Source of the DNA: a virus
DNA: 20,231 nt
Strand: one strand, 5' to 3'
Virus record (IMG/VR): IMGVR_UViG_3300005585_000014
Span: 1-20,231 of that record
The notes under the pieces are model-generated. The model had not been told where the DNA came from and made no database searches. It worked only from the letters and a program-made list of their open reading frames with translations. Made by a program: the position numbers and the translations under genes. Below, one piece after another: positions 1 to 16,286 of the stretch (the first letter of the stretch is position 1; each line of letters begins with the position of its first letter).

Positions 1-258
1 GGAAGCGGAGCGGGAAACGTGGATAGCGGAGAAAGCGGCGTGGGAAGCGTGGATAGCGGCGCGGGAAGCGGCGGATGCGGCGTGGGAAGTGTGGGTAGCG
101 GCGCGGGAAGCGGCGGATGCGGCGCAGGAAGCGGCGGAAGCGGCGCTGGAAGCAGAAGACCGCGAATAAACAACCTCAAAGAATGGGTGGAAGGGCTGGC
201 ATTCATGGTTGCCACTCTCAGCGGGTGGCAGAGGGTCGAACTTGAAACAGTTCAGTAG
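1..258 (+). CDS. Gly/Ser-repeat protein, C-terminal end only (5' partial)
   Basis: The frame is open from the first base of the window, so the true start lies upstream. The GTG at 19 is an internal codon unless proven otherwise. The visible part begins with about 50 residues made almost only of Gly, Ser, Ala, Val and a few Cys and Asp. They follow a 14-residue period, and two units contain the GSGGCG motif. A short non-repetitive tail follows (RRPRINNLKEWVEGLAFMV and on), with a basic patch and a helical, partly hydrophobic end. The stop TAG overlaps a GTG by one base. The gene leads into an operon of recombination genes, so the repeat may be a flexible linker in a replication or recombination protein. 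That is inference only; I do not recognise the family. Confidence 0.6.
   Translation, partial: GSGAGNVDSGESGVGSVDSGAGSGGCGVGSVGSGAGSGGCGAGSGGSGAGSRRPRINNLKEWVEGLAFMVATLSGWQRVELETVQ
19..160 (+). repeat. Imperfect 42-bp tandem repeat encoding a Gly/Ser linker
   Basis: A 28-base block at 55-82 recurs unchanged at 97-124, a period of 42 bases or 14 codons. Degenerate partial units of the same GGAAGCGGCG style lie on both sides. Because 42 is a multiple of three, gain or loss of a unit keeps the reading frame. Confidence 0.75.
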
Positions 259-644
259 TGACGAAATGGGCCCTAGAGCAATTCCGAATAGCGGCCCCGT
301 TAGGGAAGAAATTATGCGCTTCTTGTTTTTGGGAGATGTCACCAAGCGACCGGCACAAGTCCTGCCAGAAGTGCAGAAAGGCCGGCGGGTATCTGACGTG
401 GAGCGGAAAGCATGAACAAGCCGCCAAGCCTAGTGATTATCACTTGCGTCCGCTGCGGAACGACTCGCAAAACGACCGAGCGCAGGCAGAAATACTGCGG
501 CCTGGAATGCGCGCAGGAAGCGAAGGCCGACAAGTACCGCGCCGAGATCAATCAACTCATGTCGGAGGGCAAGATCCCGGCAACACGCATGGAAGCGTCA
601 TTCGCGGGCGCGAAGTTTTACTTCACCGGTCAGCCGTGCGGTAA
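258..644 (+). CDS. Zinc-finger reading frame, possibly frameshifted into the next gene
   Basis: A GTG at 258 overlaps the TAG of the upstream gene by one base. The first ~50 residues look like a real zinc-binding module: CASC near residue 21 and CQKC near residue 36, followed by basic residues, in the style of small phage treble-clef or HNH-associated fingers. After about residue 52 the frame runs through the well-supported gene at 412-852 and becomes Arg-rich and featureless, as an out-of-frame shadow would. No Shine-Dalgarno box precedes the GTG. Either this is a real gene with a long overlap, or its useful N-terminal part was once (or is still, by frameshifting) joined to the next gene. 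A competing frame at 209-415 ends in an ATGA overlap with the next gene but has no recognisable motif. Confidence 0.35.
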   Translation: MTKWALEQFRIAAPLGKKLCASCFWEMSPSDRHKSCQKCRKAGGYLTWSGKHEQAAKPSDYHLRPLRNDSQNDRAQAEILRPGMRAGSEGRQVPRRDQSTHVGGQDPGNTHGSVIRGREVLLHRSAVR

Positions 645-852
645 CGGACATATCGACGTGCGGACAACAAGCACGAAGAACTGCGTTGTCTGTTCGCGAG
701 ACAAACACCGCCGCGACAACGCACTCAAGGCCGGAAAACGCGAGAGTCAGGCGAAGCCGGTGAAGGTGTCCGAATCTGTCCAGACGAATACGACATGGCT
801 GCACATTCTGTCCGATTGGCGGCCTGTGGTGGTGGCGCGTGGAATGGTCTGA
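412..852 (+). CDS. Phage zinc-ribbon protein
   Basis: A 146-residue protein with two visible metal-binding modules. The N-terminal one has CVRC at about residues 12-15, then YCGLEC at about 28-33. The second is PCGNGH near residue 75 followed by CVVC near residue 92, preceded by the FYFTG lead-in. This second pattern is common in small phage proteins that accompany homing endonucleases or bind nucleic acid. The start is well supported: a GGAG box at 400-403 lies exactly 8 bases before the ATG. The region after the second module is basic and may contact DNA. I infer a nucleic-acid-binding role in the early operon, and no catalytic motif is visible. The upstream frame carries a further Cys pair that may have belonged to this protein. 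Confidence 0.7.
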   Translation: MNKPPSLVIITCVRCGTTRKTTERRQKYCGLECAQEAKADKYRAEINQLMSEGKIPATRMEASFAGAKFYFTGQPCGNGHIDVRTTSTKNCVVCSRDKHRRDNALKAGKRESQAKPVKVSESVQTNTTWLHILSDWRPVVVARGMV

Positions 853-856
853 CCCC

Positions 857-1051
857 ATGCCCGGACCTTACCCCGGAGTGATGGAGATATCCCGCGACGG
901 AGGCTGGTGCAAAGAATGCAACCGCCAGCATCGGGACACCATCTCAAGGCGCCGGGAAGGCGATACGTTGATTTACTGGCGAACGATTGGCCCGCATTGG
1001 GTGCGGCATTTCAATTCTGCGGATGAGGCGAAGGCATATGACTACGTTTGA
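857..1051 (+). CDS. Small hypothetical protein with a single CxxC
   Basis: About 64 residues. It contains WCKEC followed by NRQHRD, then a short Arg-rich stretch and an aromatic-rich C-terminal half (IYWRTIGPHWVRHF). The family is not recognised. Two starts are possible: ATG at 857, just after the preceding stop, or an in-frame GTG at 839 that would overlap the preceding gene by 14 bases. Neither has a clear Shine-Dalgarno box, so I prefer the ATG. The 3' end overlaps the start of the next gene at 1038 by 14 bases. Position in an unbroken chain of overlapping genes is the main reason to accept it. Confidence 0.5.
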   Translation: MPGPYPGVMEISRDGGWCKECNRQHRDTISRRREGDTLIYWRTIGPHWVRHFNSADEAKAYDYV

Positions 1052-1235
1052 GTGGCAACCGATAGAGACGGCTCCGAGGCAGAAGCATCCGATGATTGTG
1101 GTTCGCGGGTATTTTGCCGACCGCGATTATCTGACCGACCCGTGGTGTGTCTTTTGGGCGGATGGAGCATGGCAGCGATGGCCGCACAATGATCCGCCAA
1201 CGATGTGGGTAGCCCTCCCGGAGCCGCCAAAGTGA
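1038..1235 (+). CDS. DUF551-like small phage protein
   Basis: A 65-residue protein. The N-terminus MTTFEWQPIETAP and the C-terminus MWVALPEPPK match the signature ends of the DUF551-type proteins common in phages and prophages (a WxPIETAP opening and a W-x-PLPxPP close). Their biochemical role is unknown. The frame is open upstream to 987, but the ATG at 1038 starts exactly at the conserved opening and has GAGG at 1025-1028 at 9-base spacing. The TGA overlaps the GTG of ninB (GTGA), so translation is probably coupled. Confidence 0.7.
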   Translation: MTTFEWQPIETAPRQKHPMIVVRGYFADRDYLTDPWCVFWADGAWQRWPHNDPPTMWVALPEPPK

Positions 1236-1684
1236 ACTTCCGCCTATCCGGCCGCCACGACTGGCAACGCATTCGCGATTACGTCGCCAGCCTTTCATGG
1301 CAGCGCCCGAAACTCGTTGACGGCAAGCCCGTTATCGACAGTTTCGGCGCTCCCGTCATGCAGGGGATTCAGTACCGCGTGACGATTGAGGAAATCAAAT
1401 CGAAGCGCAGCCTTGAGCAAAATTCGCGCTATTGGGCGCTGATGACGGCTATCAGCAAGCAAGCCCCAGCGTATCAAGGCGGTGTCTGGTACTCCGCTGA
1501 GGTTTGGCACGCCTACTGCGCCACAAGGTTCCTTGGCATGGATTCCGGCCCCTATGGGACTGGCGTGCCGAAGCGCACTAGCGGCCTCAAGGTGGGCGAG
1601 TTCTGCGACTACATGACACAGATCGAGATATGGGCAGGCGAGCAGTTCGCGGGCTTTGAATTTGAGTGGGAGCAAGCGGCATGA
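1232..1684 (+). CDS. ninB: NinB/Orf-family recombination protein
   Basis: A 150-residue protein. The central KSKRSLEQNSRYWALMTAIS and the following YSAEVWHAYCATRFLG are hallmarks of the lambda Orf/NinB family. That family acts as a recombination mediator: it binds single-stranded DNA and SSB and substitutes for host RecFOR during phage recombination. Length agrees with the family (lambda Orf is about 146 residues). The longer frame from 1205 adds nine unlikely residues. The GTG at 1232 is preferred because it gives a 4-base overlap with the preceding stop and has GGAG at 1220-1223, exactly 8 bases upstream. With ninG downstream, this forms a lambdoid recombination module. The family call is confident; activity in this phage is inferred. 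Confidence 0.85.
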   Translation: MNFRLSGRHDWQRIRDYVASLSWQRPKLVDGKPVIDSFGAPVMQGIQYRVTIEEIKSKRSLEQNSRYWALMTAISKQAPAYQGGVWYSAEVWHAYCATRFLGMDSGPYGTGVPKRTSGLKVGEFCDYMTQIEIWAGEQFAGFEFEWEQAA

Positions 1685-1788
1685 AGAAAAGAGCGTTGCA
1701 TCGTCGGCACAAAATAAGCGGGCTCACGCTTGAGTGGTGGTTTGTGAAGTCGTATTTCGGGTTTAGTCACTACGAGATAAGCGAATGA
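1681..1788 (+). CDS. 35-residue basic micro-protein
   Basis: A short ORF beginning MKKRALHRRHK and continuing with TLEWWFVKSYFGF. It has a strongly basic N-terminus and an aromatic C-terminal half. It overlaps ninB by 4 bases (ATGA) and the next ORF by 4 bases. A GGGAG box ends exactly 8 bases before the ATG (1668-1672), the same arrangement as for ninB and other genes here. I do not recognise it. Tight coupling on both sides and the good ribosome site argue that it is translated. Confidence 0.55.
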   Translation: MKKRALHRRHKISGLTLEWWFVKSYFGFSHYEISE

Positions 1789-1922
1789 CCCTAGCCATCC
1801 CAAAAAAGGCCAAGAAGCCCAAAGCCAAGTCCCTCAAATGGTATCGCGACAAGGCATGGGAACTAACAAGCAAGAACGACGTTGATCGTGTTATGAGCGA
1901 ACTGGCGAGGTGGGCGGCGTGA
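1785..1922 (+). CDS. 45-residue ORF: truncated second copy of the NinG N-terminus
   Basis: The first ~30 residues (AIPKKAKKPKAK, then WYRDKAWELTSK) repeat the N-terminus of the downstream NinG, with only S for P and K for R changed inside the shared block. After the shared TSK the sequence departs (NDVDRVMSELARWAA) and stops. All zinc-binding and catalytic parts of NinG are missing. It overlaps the previous ORF by 4 bases and the next GTG by 4 bases, so it sits cleanly in the operon. A weak GAG at 1774-1776 lies 8 bases upstream. It may be a decayed duplicate, or a retained small basic protein that competes with NinG for its partner or substrate. The homology is seen directly; any function is inference. 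Confidence 0.6.
   Translation: MTLAIPKKAKKPKAKSLKWYRDKAWELTSKNDVDRVMSELARWAA
1792..1873 (+). repeat. Direct repeat, copy 1 (ninG 5' end)
   Basis: By hand alignment this 82-base block matches 2012-2093 at 73 of 82 positions without gaps. Seven of the nine differences are synonymous in the shared reading frame. Confidence 0.9.
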
Positions 1923-2011
1923 CTGATTGGGAAATTATTTTAATTGGCTTTGCCGTTGGGGCAATTACGGCGACGATTTGCGACCTCATCATGAGCTTTC
2001 GCCGGAAATGA
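1919..2011 (+). CDS. 30-residue single-pass membrane micro-protein
   Basis: A GTG-started ORF, opening MTDWEIILIGFAVGAITATI and ending MSFRRK. It consists of one hydrophobic helix of about 20 residues followed by a basic end, which predicts an N-out, C-in single-pass inner-membrane peptide. GAGG at 1907-1910 is exactly 8 bases upstream of the GTG. The ORF overlaps the previous stop by 4 bases and the ninG ATG by 4 bases. It separates the truncated and full ninG copies. Its role is unknown; the start signals and the clean helix make a chance ORF less likely. Confidence 0.55.
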   Translation: MTDWEIILIGFAVGAITATICDLIMSFRRK

Positions 2012-2493
2012 TAGCCATCCCCAAGAAAGCCAAGAAGCCCAAAGCCAAGCCCCTCAGATGGTATCGCGATAAAGCGTGGGAACTGACAAGCAAATACGTT
2101 CGACTCAGAGAGGCCGATGAAGATGGATATAACCGATGCGTCACCTGCGGATTGGTCCGTCATTGGAAGGAACTCCAAGCTGGACATTTTGTTGCACAGG
2201 CTCAAGGCAATGCCGCCCGATGGGATTTACGAAATATTCACCCCCAATGCTATCGGTGCAACATCAATCTTGGTGGGAACGGTGCCGAGTACGGACCTTA
2301 TATTCGTGCTCAATTTGGCGACGAAGCACATGACGAAATCCGCCGACTTGCTGGGCAAACGCGAATCATGCGACGAGCAGACTACGAAGAAATCATAGAC
2401 GACATGGCGACCCGGCTGGCCCGTATCGCGTTGAATCCGGGGGAACGTGAGGAATCCGAATCAACTCGCTGGGCCTTGGAGCATTGCTCATGA
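2008..2493 (+). CDS. ninG: NinG/Rap-family recombination endonuclease
   Basis: A 161-residue protein of the NinG (lambda Rap) family, structure-specific nucleases that resolve recombination intermediates such as Holliday junctions. The basic N-terminus (IPKKAKKPKAK) leads into WYRDKAWELTSKY. Zinc ligands are visible as C44-x2-C47 and C81-x2-C84, with QAGHF (H60) and NIHPQCYRCN (H78) forming the HNH-like core. The open frame extends upstream to 1927, but that part lies out of phase inside the membrane micro-gene. The ATG at 2008 overlaps its stop by 4 bases, and the homology begins there. No strong Shine-Dalgarno box is seen, so translation probably relies on coupling. Lambda Rap is somewhat longer (about 204 residues). 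It pairs functionally with ninB. Confidence 0.88.
   Translation: MIAIPKKAKKPKAKPLRWYRDKAWELTSKYVRLREADEDGYNRCVTCGLVRHWKELQAGHFVAQAQGNAARWDLRNIHPQCYRCNINLGGNGAEYGPYIRAQFGDEAHDEIRRLAGQTRIMRRADYEEIIDDMATRLARIALNPGEREESESTRWALEHCS
2012..2093 (+). repeat. Direct repeat, copy 2 (inside ninG)
   Basis: Partner of 1792-1873; the copies start 220 bases apart. This copy continues into the complete ninG gene. Confidence 0.9.
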
Positions 2494-2648
2494 ACGCACA
2501 ACAACGCGAAGCAATCCGCCAAGCCAAGATACTGCGAGCCGAGACAGACCCGACAGGGCTAGCCGAGGACGTTCGCAAGATTAGCTGCCGGTTCCAAATC
2601 AAGTATCGCTGCCAGCAGGGTCAGCAAAACTATTTGCAGTTGCTTTGA
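2490..2648 (+). CDS. 52-residue hypothetical protein at the operon end
   Basis: The ATG overlaps the ninG stop by 4 bases, and GGAG at 2478-2481 lies exactly 8 bases upstream. The sequence starts MNAQQREAIRQAKILRAE, a predicted charged helix. Its last ~17 codons lie opposite the 3' end of the endolysin gene on the other strand, a tail-to-tail overlap of 50 bases. The family is not recognised. A helix followed by a short basic tail resembles small phage DNA-binding or regulatory peptides, but nothing diagnostic is seen. Confidence 0.5.
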   Translation: MNAQQREAIRQAKILRAETDPTGLAEDVRKISCRFQIKYRCQQGQQNYLQLL

Positions 2649-3129
2649 CTTCTTCAACCCGACGCCCCCACCCCTTTCCAAACGTCGGCCAGGTTGACCG
2701 GCCCTTGAGAAACTCTAGTCGGATTGCGCTGTACTTGTCGATGACCATTTGCGGATTGGTCAGCAGCACTTGTTTCAACGTCTGCTCACCAATGGCGCCG
2801 TCTGCAACAGCGCCGACAGTCGTCTGGAGCCACTTTGCTGCGCGAGACAACCCGCTGTTGACCGCTGCATCAAAGACAAGGTAGTCAACGCCAGAGGGCA
2901 ATTTGTCGCCTTTGATGCGATCCCAGTACATCTCGCGGTACAACGGCGCAACCTTGGCTGGCGTCAACGCCTTCATCTCGTCTTCGCTGACGGCGCGGTC
3001 GATCCAATCCTCCCAGACATCCTGCGTCACGCCAAGGTTAGTCCTGCCGCCAGGGTCTTGCGGGTGGTTGACGTAGCCGCCTTCGTGCTTCAGAAGGTGG
3101 GCCAAGCATGACTCAAAGTTGGCTTTCAT
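2599..3129 (-). CDS. Endolysin, GH108-type N-acetylmuramidase
   Basis: A 176-residue cytoplasmic murein hydrolase that cleaves the glycan backbone of the host wall once the holin opens the membrane. The glycosyl hydrolase 108 signature is clear: HLLKHEGGYVN with the expected catalytic Glu at residue 16, then DPGGRTNLGVTQ at about 25-36. The rest, including FDAAVNSG and the region around IGEQTLK, fits the C-terminal peptidoglycan-binding domain that usually follows in this family. There is no signal peptide or N-terminal membrane anchor, so export should need a holin. The gene overlaps the upstream membrane-protein gene by 4 bases and is the last gene of the minus-strand late unit. Its length is typical of the family. 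Confidence 0.9.
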   Translation of the reverse strand: MKANFESCLAHLLKHEGGYVNHPQDPGGRTNLGVTQDVWEDWIDRAVSEDEMKALTPAKVAPLYREMYWDRIKGDKLPSGVDYLVFDAAVNSGLSRAAKWLQTTVGAVADGAIGEQTLKQVLLTNPQMVIDKYSAIRLEFLKGRSTWPTFGKGWGRRVEEVKATANSFADPAGSDT

Positions 3130-3359
3130 TTGTCACCCTTGTCTTGGTTCTCTTTTTGCTCTTTGCCCATCTTGATGCCCGCGATTGTTCCGACAAACGC
3201 TCCGACGATGGTATTGAAGGATGGCTGGAGCATCTTAAAGAGTTCGTCGTTGTTTACGATAGGGTCAAACAAACCAACCAACGAAGCAGTGCAAGTCGCC
3301 ACTAACACCACCGCCAAGGAAAGGCAGCAGATCATGGTGATGTAATCAGCAATCTTCAT
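3126..3359 (-). CDS. Small membrane protein, second holin or antiholin candidate
   Basis: A 77-residue protein. I chose the ATG at 3357-3359 (MKIADYITM) because AAGGA lies about 7 bases upstream and the start overlaps the preceding stop by 4 bases; a longer in-frame start at 3401 would overlap the holin gene widely. It has one strong membrane helix at about residues 8-30, a second weaker hydrophobic stretch (FNTIVGAFVGTIAGIKMG, about 47-64) and a very charged C-terminus. Position between a three-helix holin and the endolysin suggests a lysis role such as a second holin, antiholin or inner-membrane helper. It has no spanin lipobox or periplasmic coiled coil. The assignment rests on topology and context, not homology. 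Confidence 0.65.
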   Translation of the reverse strand: MKIADYITMICCLSLAVVLVATCTASLVGLFDPIVNNDELFKMLQPSFNTIVGAFVGTIAGIKMGKEQKENQDKGDK

Positions 3360-3832
3360 TTCTTGTCCTTTTCTTTGCTGCCAATGCTTGAGCCAAACCA
3401 AAAGTTCAACATGGTTGCGATCACCGTGCCTAGAATGAACCCCAAAATCGTATCGGCAAATCGGACGTTCTGTTCTGGAATTACGCTGAAAGTAATAAAG
3501 CCAATGTAGATCGCCGCGCAGACTGACCAGAAGGAGGTCAGATACATCGTGAACCGCTTGCTGAACACATCCGACTGTTGGAGCGCAGCGACTTGCATGG
3601 CCCGAGCGTCGGCGGTGTTGGCCTGCTCAACCTTCAGCGTCTCCAGATCAATCTGAGCCAGCTTCAAAGCAGCGTCAGGATCAGCGGAAATGGCTTTAGT
3701 GACCGCCTCGACGGTATCTGCTACACACAGCTTAGAAGCAATAGCCGATACAGCAAAACCCCCCAAGGGGCCAGCAACAGCAGTTGCGAGAGCGGGTGCA
3801 ATGTTACCAAGCAATCGGAGCAGTTCATTCAT
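3356..3832 (-). CDS. Three-helix phage holin
   Basis: A 158-residue protein matching the layout of the holin-of-three-membrane-segments family (GTA_holin_3TM type). A hydrophobic N-terminal helix lies at about residues 11-34. An amphipathic region follows, with the family-typical ARAMQVAALQQSD. Two further hydrophobic helices are at about 95-117 and 125-147, with FWFGSSIGSK near the end and a Lys/Asp-rich C-terminus. Such proteins form inner-membrane lesions that release the endolysin. The ATG at 3832 overlaps the upstream gene's stop by 4 bases, and the stop overlaps the downstream membrane-protein gene by 4 bases. Together these form a compact lysis cassette. Confidence 0.8.
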   Translation of the reverse strand: MNELLRLLGNIAPALATAVAGPLGGFAVSAIASKLCVADTVEAVTKAISADPDAALKLAQIDLETLKVEQANTADARAMQVAALQQSDVFSKRFTMYLTSFWSVCAAIYIGFITFSVIPEQNVRFADTILGFILGTVIATMLNFWFGSSIGSKEKDKK

Positions 3833-4062
3833 TTGTCTGCTTTGTTATCTAAGCGGTCAAACAGCTTGGTCAGCATCTCTTTGATCTCGCGGATGTCGTC
3901 TTTGTAGTCATCTCTCACTACATATGTTCGAGGCAAATCCTCGCGCAGTTTGCCTAAATCAGATTTCAAGTCTTTGACCGCCGCCCAGAGCTCTCTGGCA
4001 AACCAGCCCAACCCGCTTGCCGCTGCCCCGAAAGCCAAGTTGATGAGGTCTTGTGAGTTCAT
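3829..4062 (-). CDS. Small membrane-anchored coiled-coil protein of the lysis cassette
   Basis: A 77-residue protein. A short hydrophobic/amphipathic N-terminal region (INLAFGAAASGLGWFARELW, about 7-26) is followed by a charged helix containing YVVRDDYKDDIREIKEMLTK and a Lys/Asp-rich end. Proteins with this LPxxYVxxDDYxxDIxEIKxML pattern are common beside holin genes in phages and are usually unnamed. XhlA-like lysis accessory proteins have a similar overall plan with the anchor at the other end. I infer a membrane-associated accessory role in lysis. It overlaps the holin gene by 4 bases. Confidence 0.65.
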   Translation of the reverse strand: MNSQDLINLAFGAAASGLGWFARELWAAVKDLKSDLGKLREDLPRTYVVRDDYKDDIREIKEMLTKLFDRLDNKADK

Positions 4063-4068
4063 GGCAGA

Positions 4069-4425
4069 TTACAAGCCTTGGCCAGGTGTGATGTAGACAG
4101 TAGATGCCGCTGCTGCCAAACCGCTAAAAAACGTCTCCGTGTTAAAACGCAAAATCTCCACACTTCCGGGCAACAGAACAATTGCAGATGATGGAGTGCC
4201 GGCAATAGGCGCAACAGCGTTTGTTTGCGCCAGAGCGGCAGTCGCACCAAAACCTACAAACACAGTGTTTACTGCACTGGCATTGATGACCCGATACTGC
4301 CCCGCAGCCTGCGCATTTAGTTGATCATGCACTGGGGCTTGAACACCCGTTGGAGCCGCAGCATCAGCAGCAATGACAACCGTTTTGCCCAATGGCGAAA
4401 AAGCAATTTGTGAATTTGTAGACAT
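4069..4425 (-). CDS. Small Ala-rich beta protein, probable virion accessory
   Basis: A 118-residue protein with alternating hydrophobic and small residues (YRVINASAVNTVFVGFGATA, then SAIVLLPGSVEILRF), which suggests a beta-sandwich. There is no signal peptide or catalytic motif. AAGGG lies 7 bases upstream of the ATG. It lies between the fibre genes and the lysis cassette, so it may be a tail or fibre accessory, a fibre chaperone or a decoration protein. I do not recognise the family. The 40-base AT-rich gap before it is the only clearly AT-only intergenic stretch in this block. Confidence 0.6.
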   Translation of the reverse strand: MSTNSQIAFSPLGKTVVIAADAAAPTGVQAPVHDQLNAQAAGQYRVINASAVNTVFVGFGATAALAQTNAVAPIAGTPSSAIVLLPGSVEILRFNTETFFSGLAAAASTVYITPGQGL

Positions 4426-4465
4426 GATTAACCCTTAATAAAAATAAAACCAAAATCAAATAATT

Positions 4466-5473
4466 TTATATTAACACTCGCTTTTCTTTGCGCCTCGTAA
4501 AAATTGTTCTACCCAGTTGAGCAAAAAAATCCCAGCCTAAATTATTTCCAGCATTGACATTGCTGTTCACTGTATACGCATTGAATGTTGCGCCACCCGT
4601 GGCATTTATATCTTTGATGGTTAAATAACCTGTGCTGACTATTCCGGTGACTTGAGATAAAGTTGCTTGCGACCCAGCCAATGTAGATTGCAAAAACTTC
4701 TGTGTTGTGCCAGATGTGGCGAATGAACCGACTGTACTGATTACTCCAGATTTAAGCTGTATTGTTCCGTTAGTAAATGTAAACGCTCGGGTAGAACCTT
4801 GGGTAATTGCATCTTGAAATGCCCAAGAACCTCCAATACCATTAAAATTTAACGCTGTATCAACCGTAAGCCCACCCGTTGTAATAGTTTGAGCAGTAGT
4901 TGCGGCAAATGTTATTGTATTAGCAGTAGCTGTAAAACTCATGCCTGAGTGCATGGTCAAACTACCATACAGACCACCACTACTGGCACGTGTAAAGCTG
5001 CCAGTAAATGCCGACTGAAAGGTCAAGTTCATTAAACGAGCACCATTTCCACTCATGCTCACGATGTCGCTGCCCGAAACCACATTAAAGCTAACAGCAT
5101 TGGCTTCTGTTACGCCAATACCAGCAGTTATTGTGCGTGTCCCTGTCCCGCCAGCATATGTCAAATTTACGCGAGGTGTACCAGTCATTGTTACTGCCGT
5201 ACCACCAGAATAGACAGTTGTTGCATTTCCAGCAACACTAACAATGTTGCTATTAAAGTTGATCGTTCCAGTAAATGCACTAGGAATAAATGTCAAAACT
5301 GTTGTGTTTGCGGCAAGCGTAACCGTACCACCGCCAGAACTCGCGTCAAAAATTGCAGTATCGGCCGCAGTAGGAACTGTTGCCCCACCAGCACCCCCGC
5401 TAGATGTTGACCAATTCAGCAAATTTACGGCACTCCACGACCCTGTGCCGCCAATCCAATATCTGTTAGCCAT
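4466..5473 (-). CDS. Large low-complexity beta protein, probable fibre or adhesin
   Basis: A 335-residue protein. The N-terminal NRYWIGGTGSWSAVNLLNWS and VPTAADTAIFDASSGGG is a module I associate with uncharacterised phage and bacterial adhesin-like proteins. The remainder is rich in Thr, Ser, Gly, Ala and Asn, in short beta-strand-like runs (GTINFNSN, TITAGIGV, NTITFAATT, GTIQLKSG), consistent with a beta-solenoid. It ends with the odd basic tail RTIFTRRKEKRVLI. Position next to the sialidase-like and tailspike-adaptor genes supports a receptor-binding or fibre role. The start overlaps the upstream 31-codon ORF by 8 bases. The DNA is visibly AT-richer than the head genes, as expected for an exchanged host-range gene. 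Confidence 0.7.
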   Translation of the reverse strand: MANRYWIGGTGSWSAVNLLNWSTSSGGAGGATVPTAADTAIFDASSGGGTVTLAANTTVLTFIPSAFTGTINFNSNIVSVAGNATTVYSGGTAVTMTGTPRVNLTYAGGTGTRTITAGIGVTEANAVSFNVVSGSDIVSMSGNGARLMNLTFQSAFTGSFTRASSGGLYGSLTMHSGMSFTATANTITFAATTAQTITTGGLTVDTALNFNGIGGSWAFQDAITQGSTRAFTFTNGTIQLKSGVISTVGSFATSGTTQKFLQSTLAGSQATLSQVTGIVSTGYLTIKDINATGGATFNAYTVNSNVNAGNNLGWDFFAQLGRTIFTRRKEKRVLI

Positions 5474-13799: not shown

Positions 13800-14590
13800 T
13801 GGACACCTCCGATATTGTTGTTAACTGTGAGAATTATGGACGGAATACCTGGGTGTGGGGCAGAAGCTGCAAATGCGGTAACTTCAACACTGAGGTCATC
13901 GACCGAGAACATCAGTTCAACATAGTCATTCGCCTTAAGATCAAAAAAGTAATTCAGCGATGAAAAAATCTCAGCGTTATTACCCTGAATTCTGATTCGA
14001 CTGCAACTATCTGGCACATCGACACCGTTAAGGCGAAACCAAAAATCAAATATCCCCGTGCCGCCTGCGGTCTTATCCAACTGAAACGATGTGTCAAAGT
14101 TGTAAATGCCCTCGCTATCTACAATGATCCGCGAGGTGGGAGAGCCAAGATAAACACCGTTGCTCAGGTCGGTGTTGTTAAACGTAATGGCCTTGGCTGT
14201 GTTGATAACTGTCGCTGTCTGGGTGGTGGTGTCATAAAACGACCCATATCTTGCCCTTTTGAACTCCCGTGGCGGTGGAGTCATCTGCAAGCCCTCAACG
14301 GCTTTATTCAGCTTGTCGACCAACGCCAGCGCCTGATTTGCTTTGTTCTCAGCCAGCGCCGCATTGATGGCTGATTGTTGCGCTAATGCAGAAATCTGTG
14401 CCAGCGCCTCGTTTGCAGTAGCGGCGGCATTGTCGGCCTGAAACTCAAAGTCGGTTCCGATGATGACTTGCAATGTGTCAACAGTGGAGAATAAAAGCTC
14501 GAACTGCCTGATCTGCTGTTGGTCAGTCAGAAATGCAGCAAGCTGGTCTCGCGTTAGATTTAGCTTGCGGGAAATGGGTGCGGTTGCCAT
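13796..14590 (-). CDS. Tail-needle-like protein with coiled coil and C1q/TNF-like knob
   Basis: A 264-residue protein in the place of P22 gp26, directly after the gp10-like gene. A helical N-terminal region leads into an Ala-rich heptad stretch at about 50-100 (for example ANEALAQISALAQQSAINAA). A beta domain of about 150 residues follows (TAKAITFNNTDLSNGVYLGS, then GIYNFDTSFQLDK and NDYVELMFSV), with the pattern of C1q/TNF-like jelly rolls. P22 gp26 (233 residues) is a trimeric coiled-coil plug, and the related Sf6 needle ends in a TNF-like knob, so the layout fits. A short fibre is the alternative. It overlaps the gp10-like gene by 1 base and the next gene by 4. Confidence 0.6.
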   Translation of the reverse strand: MATAPISRKLNLTRDQLAAFLTDQQQIRQFELLFSTVDTLQVIIGTDFEFQADNAAATANEALAQISALAQQSAINAALAENKANQALALVDKLNKAVEGLQMTPPPREFKRARYGSFYDTTTQTATVINTAKAITFNNTDLSNGVYLGSPTSRIIVDSEGIYNFDTSFQLDKTAGGTGIFDFWFRLNGVDVPDSCSRIRIQGNNAEIFSSLNYFFDLKANDYVELMFSVDDLSVEVTAFAASAPHPGIPSIILTVNNNIGGVQ

Positions 14591-15993
14591 CAGAATGCCA
14601 GTGGCTCGATCTGAGCCTCAAGTCGTACGAATGACACGTGGGCATCACTGTCGCCACGGAAGCGCTGGATGCGCCAGTTGCGCATGTGTCCTTGCTGGAA
14701 CCACGCCAGGCGCTTATTGCTGCCTGTGGTGCCAACGCTGATGCTGCGATCTTGGCTCCATGACTTTCCATCGATGCTGTAGCTGGTGCTGATTTGCGGG
14801 TTTTTGCCAAGAGCAATGCTGCCCGTGAGACTGACCAGCTCTAGCTCGTTAAAAATTGCGCCATTGCTCTCGTTGTAGACGATGAGCGTGCCAAACTCCC
14901 AGCGTACCTGTTGACCCCAATGGTGGCCGGTATCTTGAACCAAGTAACCGATGGTGCTGGATTGTGGATCGCCTACCAGCCACCTGTCATATGCCCAGAC
15001 TAGATTGCGAGCGCGGTACTGGGCAAAGCCTATCGTGGTGGTAGTCAGCGTAAACCATACCTGTTCACCAAGCGCTTCGGATGCCGATGCATCGTAGACC
15101 ACGGTGCGGTCTGGCAAGTGCACATAAAGGTGCTGATGGTTCTTGTCATTGCGTGCTTCGAGCTTGACGGTGGCCAGTTGCACCTCGGTGTAATTGAGCA
15201 GCAGATTGTCGATCTCCTGCGTGCTGATCTTTTGAGCGGTTGCGGCAGCGCCGACGTAAATGCCCGGAGCTTCATTGCGTCCACTCCCTAAAAAGGCAAT
15301 GCGCTCAATGAAAACGCAGCAAGCCTGCGTCCCGACAACACCCTTTTGTATCTGCGCTCCATCAATCCTTGCAAATGGAAAAAGCTCGCCGCCAACGTTG
15401 TCAAACACCTCGATGGTGTTGCGGTTCAGCGCATAGACCTCGTTTCTGAGTTTGAGCAACGCCACCACAGGGTCTGGATCAACTTCGGACGATCCGTACT
15501 TCAGCGGGTTGACTTGGGTGGGATCGTTCAGCTCGGTGACGATCAGAAACTCGCCGTCGGTGGTCATGAAGTAACCATCCACCCAAACCACATCCAGCAC
15601 CACGCCGAGGTCGGGGTCGGTGACTTGCGTCAGGGTCGTGCCGTCCCAGTAATACAGCCGCCCTCCGGAGGCAATCGCCAACTCGTCAAAGCTGTAATCG
15701 AATGTCACCAGTTGATCTGTTGGCCCACCTACATCACCCAGCACAGTCACTGTGCCCATGCTGGAGACCTCCACCAGCTTTGTGCCCATCACTCGATAGC
15801 AACTGCCTTGCCAGTTGATGCCGCCACGGTCAATGCCTGGGCCTGTTCCGTTGGCCACAATGCCGTCGCCTGGCCGCAAAAACCCGTTGCTAATCCCTGA
15901 CTGCTTCGGCACCGGGACGAAGTTGACCGGGTAAGCGGTGCGCAGCTCTGGAGAGTTGTCAGCGTAGATGCCGTTGAGGATGGGTATCTGCAT
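14590..15993 (-). CDS. P22 gp10-like packaged-DNA stabilisation / tail hub protein
   Basis: A 467-residue protein, almost the length of P22 gp10 (472), which completes the tail hub below gp4 and closes the head after DNA packaging. The N-terminus MQIPILNGIYADNSPELRTA matches the family opening (QxPxxxGxY). Repeated beta-propeller-like strands follow (LYYWDGTTLTQVTD, DVVWVDGYFMTTDGEFLIV), and the C-terminus includes DSDAHVSFVRLEAQIEPLAF. An upstream in-frame GTG at 15996 is possible, but the ATG at 15991-15993 has AAGG at 7-base spacing and overlaps the preceding TGA by one base (TGATG). It sits in a chain of overlapping genes. Confident family call. Confidence 0.85.
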   Translation of the reverse strand: MQIPILNGIYADNSPELRTAYPVNFVPVPKQSGISNGFLRPGDGIVANGTGPGIDRGGINWQGSCYRVMGTKLVEVSSMGTVTVLGDVGGPTDQLVTFDYSFDELAIASGGRLYYWDGTTLTQVTDPDLGVVLDVVWVDGYFMTTDGEFLIVTELNDPTQVNPLKYGSSEVDPDPVVALLKLRNEVYALNRNTIEVFDNVGGELFPFARIDGAQIQKGVVGTQACCVFIERIAFLGSGRNEAPGIYVGAAATAQKISTQEIDNLLLNYTEVQLATVKLEARNDKNHQHLYVHLPDRTVVYDASASEALGEQVWFTLTTTTIGFAQYRARNLVWAYDRWLVGDPQSSTIGYLVQDTGHHWGQQVRWEFGTLIVYNESNGAIFNELELVSLTGSIALGKNPQISTSYSIDGKSWSQDRSISVGTTGSNKRLAWFQQGHMRNWRIQRFRGDSDAHVSFVRLEAQIEPLAF

Positions 15994-16286
15994 CACTTGG
16001 CCTTGTTGCGTTCAGAGATGCGCTTGGCCTTGGCCTTGGCATCAGTCTTGGACGATGCGCCCCACGCCCTCAGACTCAACAGCAAACGGGTCGGTTCACC
16101 GTCTTTGTATTCTGGGCCAGAATTGCCAGCCATGCGAGCCAAGAACGATGCCCTGCGAGGGTTATCGCCAGACTTAACAGGAGGCTTTAGATTCATACCC
16201 TCGGCTTTTGCCGCAGCCCTTCCCTTGGCGTTCAAGCCGCCTTTGGGGTTCTGACCTTCCTTACGTGCATAGGCTGGGGTTTTCAT
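15993..16286 (-). CDS. Small basic conserved phage protein (KGGLNAKGR type)
   Basis: A 97-residue, strongly basic protein containing GQNPKGGLNAKGRAAAKAEG, LKPPVKSGDNPRRASFLARM and PTRLLLSLRAWGASSKTDAK. I recognise this pattern from small proteins in aquatic phages, usually annotated only as domains of unknown function; the exact family number is uncertain. It has no membrane segment or signal. It overlaps the next basic protein by 4 bases and lies just before the gp10-like gene. A DNA-binding or virion-internal role is suggested by charge and location only. Confidence 0.65.
   Translation of the reverse strand: MKTPAYARKEGQNPKGGLNAKGRAAAKAEGMNLKPPVKSGDNPRRASFLARMAGNSGPEYKDGEPTRLLLSLRAWGASSKTDAKAKAKRISERNKAK

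Follow-up and report, generated by a model that had tools for sequence, protein, structure and literature searches.

A chimeric short ORF bearing the ninG 5' end ahead of ninG in a virus contig: a probable relic of recombination between ninG alleles

The window, as the whole of a linear viral record of 20,231 bases is called here, contains two copies of the 5' end of ninG, one at the start of ninG itself and the other in a 45-residue ORF lying upstream (Table 1). This short ORF is probably a relic of recombination between phages with different ninG alleles and would, as such, have no selected protein function. Examination of the two copies, of the gene boundaries around them and of other ninG loci forms the basis of this reading.

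Gene order and the repeated ninG 5' end

The first 2.6 kb of the window correspond to an early region on the plus strand, in which ninB, a 35-residue ORF, the 45-residue short ORF, a 30-residue ORF, ninG and a truncated gene follow one another, with all gene junctions from ninB onward being four-base ATGA or GTGA overlaps. From about 2.6 kb on, endolysin, tail, head-closure and major head genes are found on the minus strand. At the edge of the record (window positions 1-170), G+C-rich repeats with a 21-base spacing are seen. The assignment of ninB relies on matches to PF05772 (29.3 bits, as compared to a cut-off of 23.8) and PHROG 72 (E 9e-19). The product of 2008-2493 is a NinG family member and a predicted junction endonuclease, scoring 71 bits against PF05766 (E 1.5e-19; cut-off 25.4) and matching PHROG 5034 with an E-value of 1.4e-20. 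Residues C44, C47, H60, C81 and C84 are invariant and common to 15 relatives (alignment A1), while the full invariant set of the family, namely, C44, C47, Q57, G59, H60, Q80, C81, C84 and N85, lies entirely beyond the copied part. In the NinG structure model (mean pLDDT 89.7), residues 16-33 form the first helix.

Table 1. Features of the early region considered here (window coordinates).
Feature	Position	Strand	Basis or remark
ninB (orf-type recombination mediator), upstream edge of the putative exchanged cassette	1232..1684	+	PF05772, PHROG 72
35-aa ORF, ATGA overlaps at both ends	1681..1788	+	No family match in Pfam/PHROG
Short ORF, 45 aa: NinG residues 2-29, then 16 unrelated residues	1785..1922	+	ORF call and alignment
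Repeat copy 1, ninG 5' end	1792..1873	+	Repeat search and alignment
Unrelated 3' tail of the short ORF, with Shine-Dalgarno-like AGGTGG before the next start codon	1878..1922	+	Sequence; DNA shuffles
30-aa ORF, GTG start, one hydrophobic stretch	1919..2011	+	No confident family match
ninG (predicted Rap-type DNA junction endonuclease), 161 aa	2008..2493	+	PF05766, PHROG 5034
Repeat copy 2, start of ninG	2012..2093	+	Repeat search and alignment
First shared gene after the cassette, truncated: 52 aa vs 116 aa in L054	2490..2648	+	94% DNA identity to L054 over 2499-2617

The preliminary description of this DNA had reported an ungapped 82-base recurrence with seven of its nine differences synonymous, and both statements were borne out upon alignment of the two blocks, which are identical at 73 of 82 positions, with no gaps. 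Across the first 5 kb (window positions 1-5000), the runner-up ungapped match to the block scores 35/82, and over the entire contig, the ninG 5' end occurs twice, both times in this locus. A repeat search yielded slightly longer copies (1792-1878 and 2012-2098), and the similarity, as read from the sequence, can be extended to the ATGA start of both genes by allowing one three-base gap. Its downstream limit corresponds to NinG residue 29.

That the upstream copy encodes the NinG N-terminus before leaving the homology and stopping after 45 codons was likewise confirmed, with the ORF in question beginning with ATG and ending with TGA. Divergence from NinG begins just ahead of the conserved core; the short ORF contains none of the invariant Cys and His residues, with homology ending before residue 44. 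According to the structure model, the copied part comprises the basic tail and about three quarters of the first helix, such that the break falls inside that helix. Because the start and stop of the short ORF overlap the neighboring genes by four bases, it is probably translated.

No relative of the short ORF was detected. It matched no Pfam profile at E-values up to 1, and so fell short of the PF05766 cut-off, no PHROG family, and no phage sequence in a tblastn search at E-values up to 10. Scans of viral contigs with the degenerate pattern WYRDKAWE and the looser form WYR--KAW returned no matches, nor did a scan with the tail pattern DVDRVM-ELARWA, and no source of the tail, NDVDRVMSELARWAA, came to light.

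Divergence of the two copies and distribution of the short form

The 27 core codons of the two copies differ by eight synonymous and two non-synonymous changes. In simulations in which both copies were neutral, two or fewer non-synonymous changes arose in <0.1% of runs, as compared to 0.3-0.9% when an in-genome duplication left the short copy alone neutral, and 15-88%, depending on the omega assumed, when both copies were constrained. Given how rarely the neutral runs yielded so few non-synonymous changes, the copies probably diverged while both were constrained. With only 10 differences and a simple substitution model, the comparison is suggestive, rather than conclusive, of both lineages having been constrained for most of their divergence.

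These values bear directly on the possibility that the 5' end of ninG was recently duplicated within this genome and then decayed neutrally. The two copies are indeed found in the same contig, 220 bases apart and 89% identical, and no second ninG allele is known; however, such an origin predicts that about six of the 10 changes be non-synonymous, rather than the two observed (P 0.003-0.009), and the structure of a tandem repeat is absent. Specifically, no DNA similarity was detected between 1878-2007 and the ninG body or between 1700-1784 and 1923-2007, and the arrangement is therefore not a tandem duplication, a candidate rejected at the DNA level. In-genome duplication is thus considered highly improbable. 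A decayed ninG body following copy 1 was also rejected at the DNA level, with the similarity of the short-ORF tail to the ninG body not exceeding that of shuffled sequences (P 0.32); upon translation, one frame of three reached P 0.03, which was treated as chance.

It had also been proposed that both copies were kept under protein-level constraint or came from related genes. The excess of synonymous changes is genuine and speaks against a simple duplication after which the short copy drifted neutrally, yet it does not single out selection on the short form. Since two ninG genes in two phages would leave the same pattern as would ninG and a selected short gene, the bias is silent as to where the constraint acted, and a pair of ninG alleles, each diverging as a full-length gene, would fit it at least as well as would selection on the short form.

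The distribution of the arrangement was considered in other ninG loci. A second copy of the ninG start above chance was seen in none of the 60 loci tested, comprising 52 IMG/VR and genome loci and eight named phages, many of them distant and some near-duplicates. Weak self-matches (best E 0.001 in L227; 0.008-0.015 in L029, L011 and L013) were rejected as second copies, as they are about what is expected from 60 tests or fall in other parts of the locus where identity is low. The closest ninG relatives, none of which presents a second N-terminus, are just 50-57% identical, and for this reason a recently formed arrangement limited to close relatives could have been missed; the collections searched may, moreover, omit records very near the window. 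In one locus (L016, 2386-2740), ninG is split, with 38 codons preceding a stop and the remainder lying in another frame, reflecting either a sequencing error or a broken gene.

A maintained small protein, in which a Lys-rich NinG N-terminus modulates NinG, for instance, as a competitor for DNA or for NinB or another partner, would account for an intact ORF with a synonymous bias, for four-base overlaps with both neighbors and for the fact that the basic tail has been kept along with most of the first helix. Against this stand the absence of the short form from all 60 other ninG loci and of any family match, a break within helix 16-33 that leaves the fragment without a single invariant core residue, and a synonymous bias that can be explained without it. 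Such a protein is accordingly deemed unlikely. The earlier suggestion of a competitor peptide likewise has a low probability: apart from the intact ORF in its tightly overlapping operon, nothing supports it, whether in the loci, in the family searches or in the fragment, whose NinG part amounts to a basic tail and a first helix cut short. It is very unlikely that selection maintains the NinG N-terminus as a separate peptide, encoded immediately ahead of ninG in its operon, to regulate NinG activity.

Alternatively, the short ORF might be kept only as a translational relay from the 35-residue ORF to the 30-residue ORF and ninG, its protein sequence being irrelevant. The four-base ATGA or GTGA overlaps at every gene junction between 1232 and 2493 are in line with this idea, as is the location of the AGGTGG preceding the 1919 start within the short ORF. 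At the same time, coupling may be unneeded, because a Shine-Dalgarno-like site precedes the 1919 start itself, and a relay alone does not account for the synonymous bias. This explanation is hence regarded as quite unlikely.

Cassette edges and the origin of the short ORF

The closest ninB relative, L054, is 89% identical to the window in the amino acid sequence of this gene and 83% in its DNA sequence, with homology ending at the ninB stop codon and resuming at the start codon of the next shared gene, such that the breaks coincide with ATGA junctions. Between these homologous flanks, the content differs, with L054 containing two unrelated nuclease genes, one matching an endonuclease family (PHROG 93) and the other a small HNH-like gene (PHROG 1588 and 131); ninG is absent both from between the flanking genes and from the rest of the L054 record. 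Since L054 has other nuclease genes at this position and homology breaks at gene edges, the stretch from ninB to the next gene appears to be a slot in which nuclease genes are swapped at gene edges, in agreement with a published comparison of lambdoid phages, in which orf was located upstream of rap or, alternatively, of rusA (PMC4118853). L054 was the only relative identified when ninB and the downstream gene were used in searches. The cassette boundaries thus revealed at ATGA gene junctions favor the other option raised in the preliminary description, namely, that of a recombination scar.

A relic of recombination between phages with different ninG alleles is, therefore, the preferred explanation. 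The ancestor would have carried ninB, a small gene and ninG allele A. An exchange in the resolvase slot, extending from ninB to the next shared gene, would then have brought in the tail of a small gene, together with the 30-residue ORF and ninG allele B. Of allele A, the first 29 codons alone would remain, fused to the foreign tail, and the resulting ORF would at most hand ribosomes along the overlapping gene chain. The presence of AGGTGG inside the foreign tail is as would be expected were the tail and the 30-residue ORF to have travelled together, and lambda Red is able to efficiently recombine DNA that is 22% diverged (PMC2327257). The donor of allele A is hypothetical, as neither protein nor pattern scans turned up a phage with a full-length version. 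That the short ORF fits cleanly into the four-base overlap chain counts against a relic, since this is also expected of a maintained gene.

Relatives are unevenly distributed along the window. The early region has almost no relatives in viral contigs, unlike the head-closure gene (14590-15996; 599 or more) and the endolysin gene (2599-3129; 422 matches), where identities reach 90%. For the structural and lysis genes, many freshwater-type relatives exist at 85-90%, with one of the 30 records checked containing ninG (31% identity). A second, sharp breakpoint is found at 2617-2622, outside the short ORF and the repeat. To its left, the sequence matches L054 (94%) up to 2617, while from 2622 on, its match is to L140 and relatives, in their lysis region, at about 80-83%; a shared CAGCA lies close to the break. 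This junction, which truncates the gene at 2490 and changes the end of the endolysin gene, reflects a genuine recombination event or else an assembly join; L140 and L146 have the same convergent layout.

Relation to known systems

The downstream gene resembles NinG/Rap of lambdoid phages (PF05766, PHROG 5034/171), being a member of that family and following ninB with short genes in between. Indeed, phage 21 presents the same layout of small overlapping genes, ordered ninB-ninE-ninF-ninG. By contrast, the short ORF lacks the Cys/His core of NinG/Rap, its NinG-derived part being limited to the basic tail and a portion of the first helix. It shares with ninE and ninF of phage 21 the slot between orf (ninB) and rap (ninG), small size and mostly four-base overlaps, yet is itself partly ninG-derived. 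The sharp exchange, the related phages and the diverged gene copies are reminiscent of homeologous recombination and mosaicism in temperate phages (PMC2327257; PMC3945230), although in this case a fragment of the old allele would have stayed in place, and no recombinase of the phage was identified on the partial contig.

The locus thus offers a readable example of what appear to be phage resolvase cassettes swapped at four-base gene overlaps, an exchange by which an operon can gain a small chimeric ORF. Were the short form functional, it would tune a phage junction endonuclease in an unusual manner.
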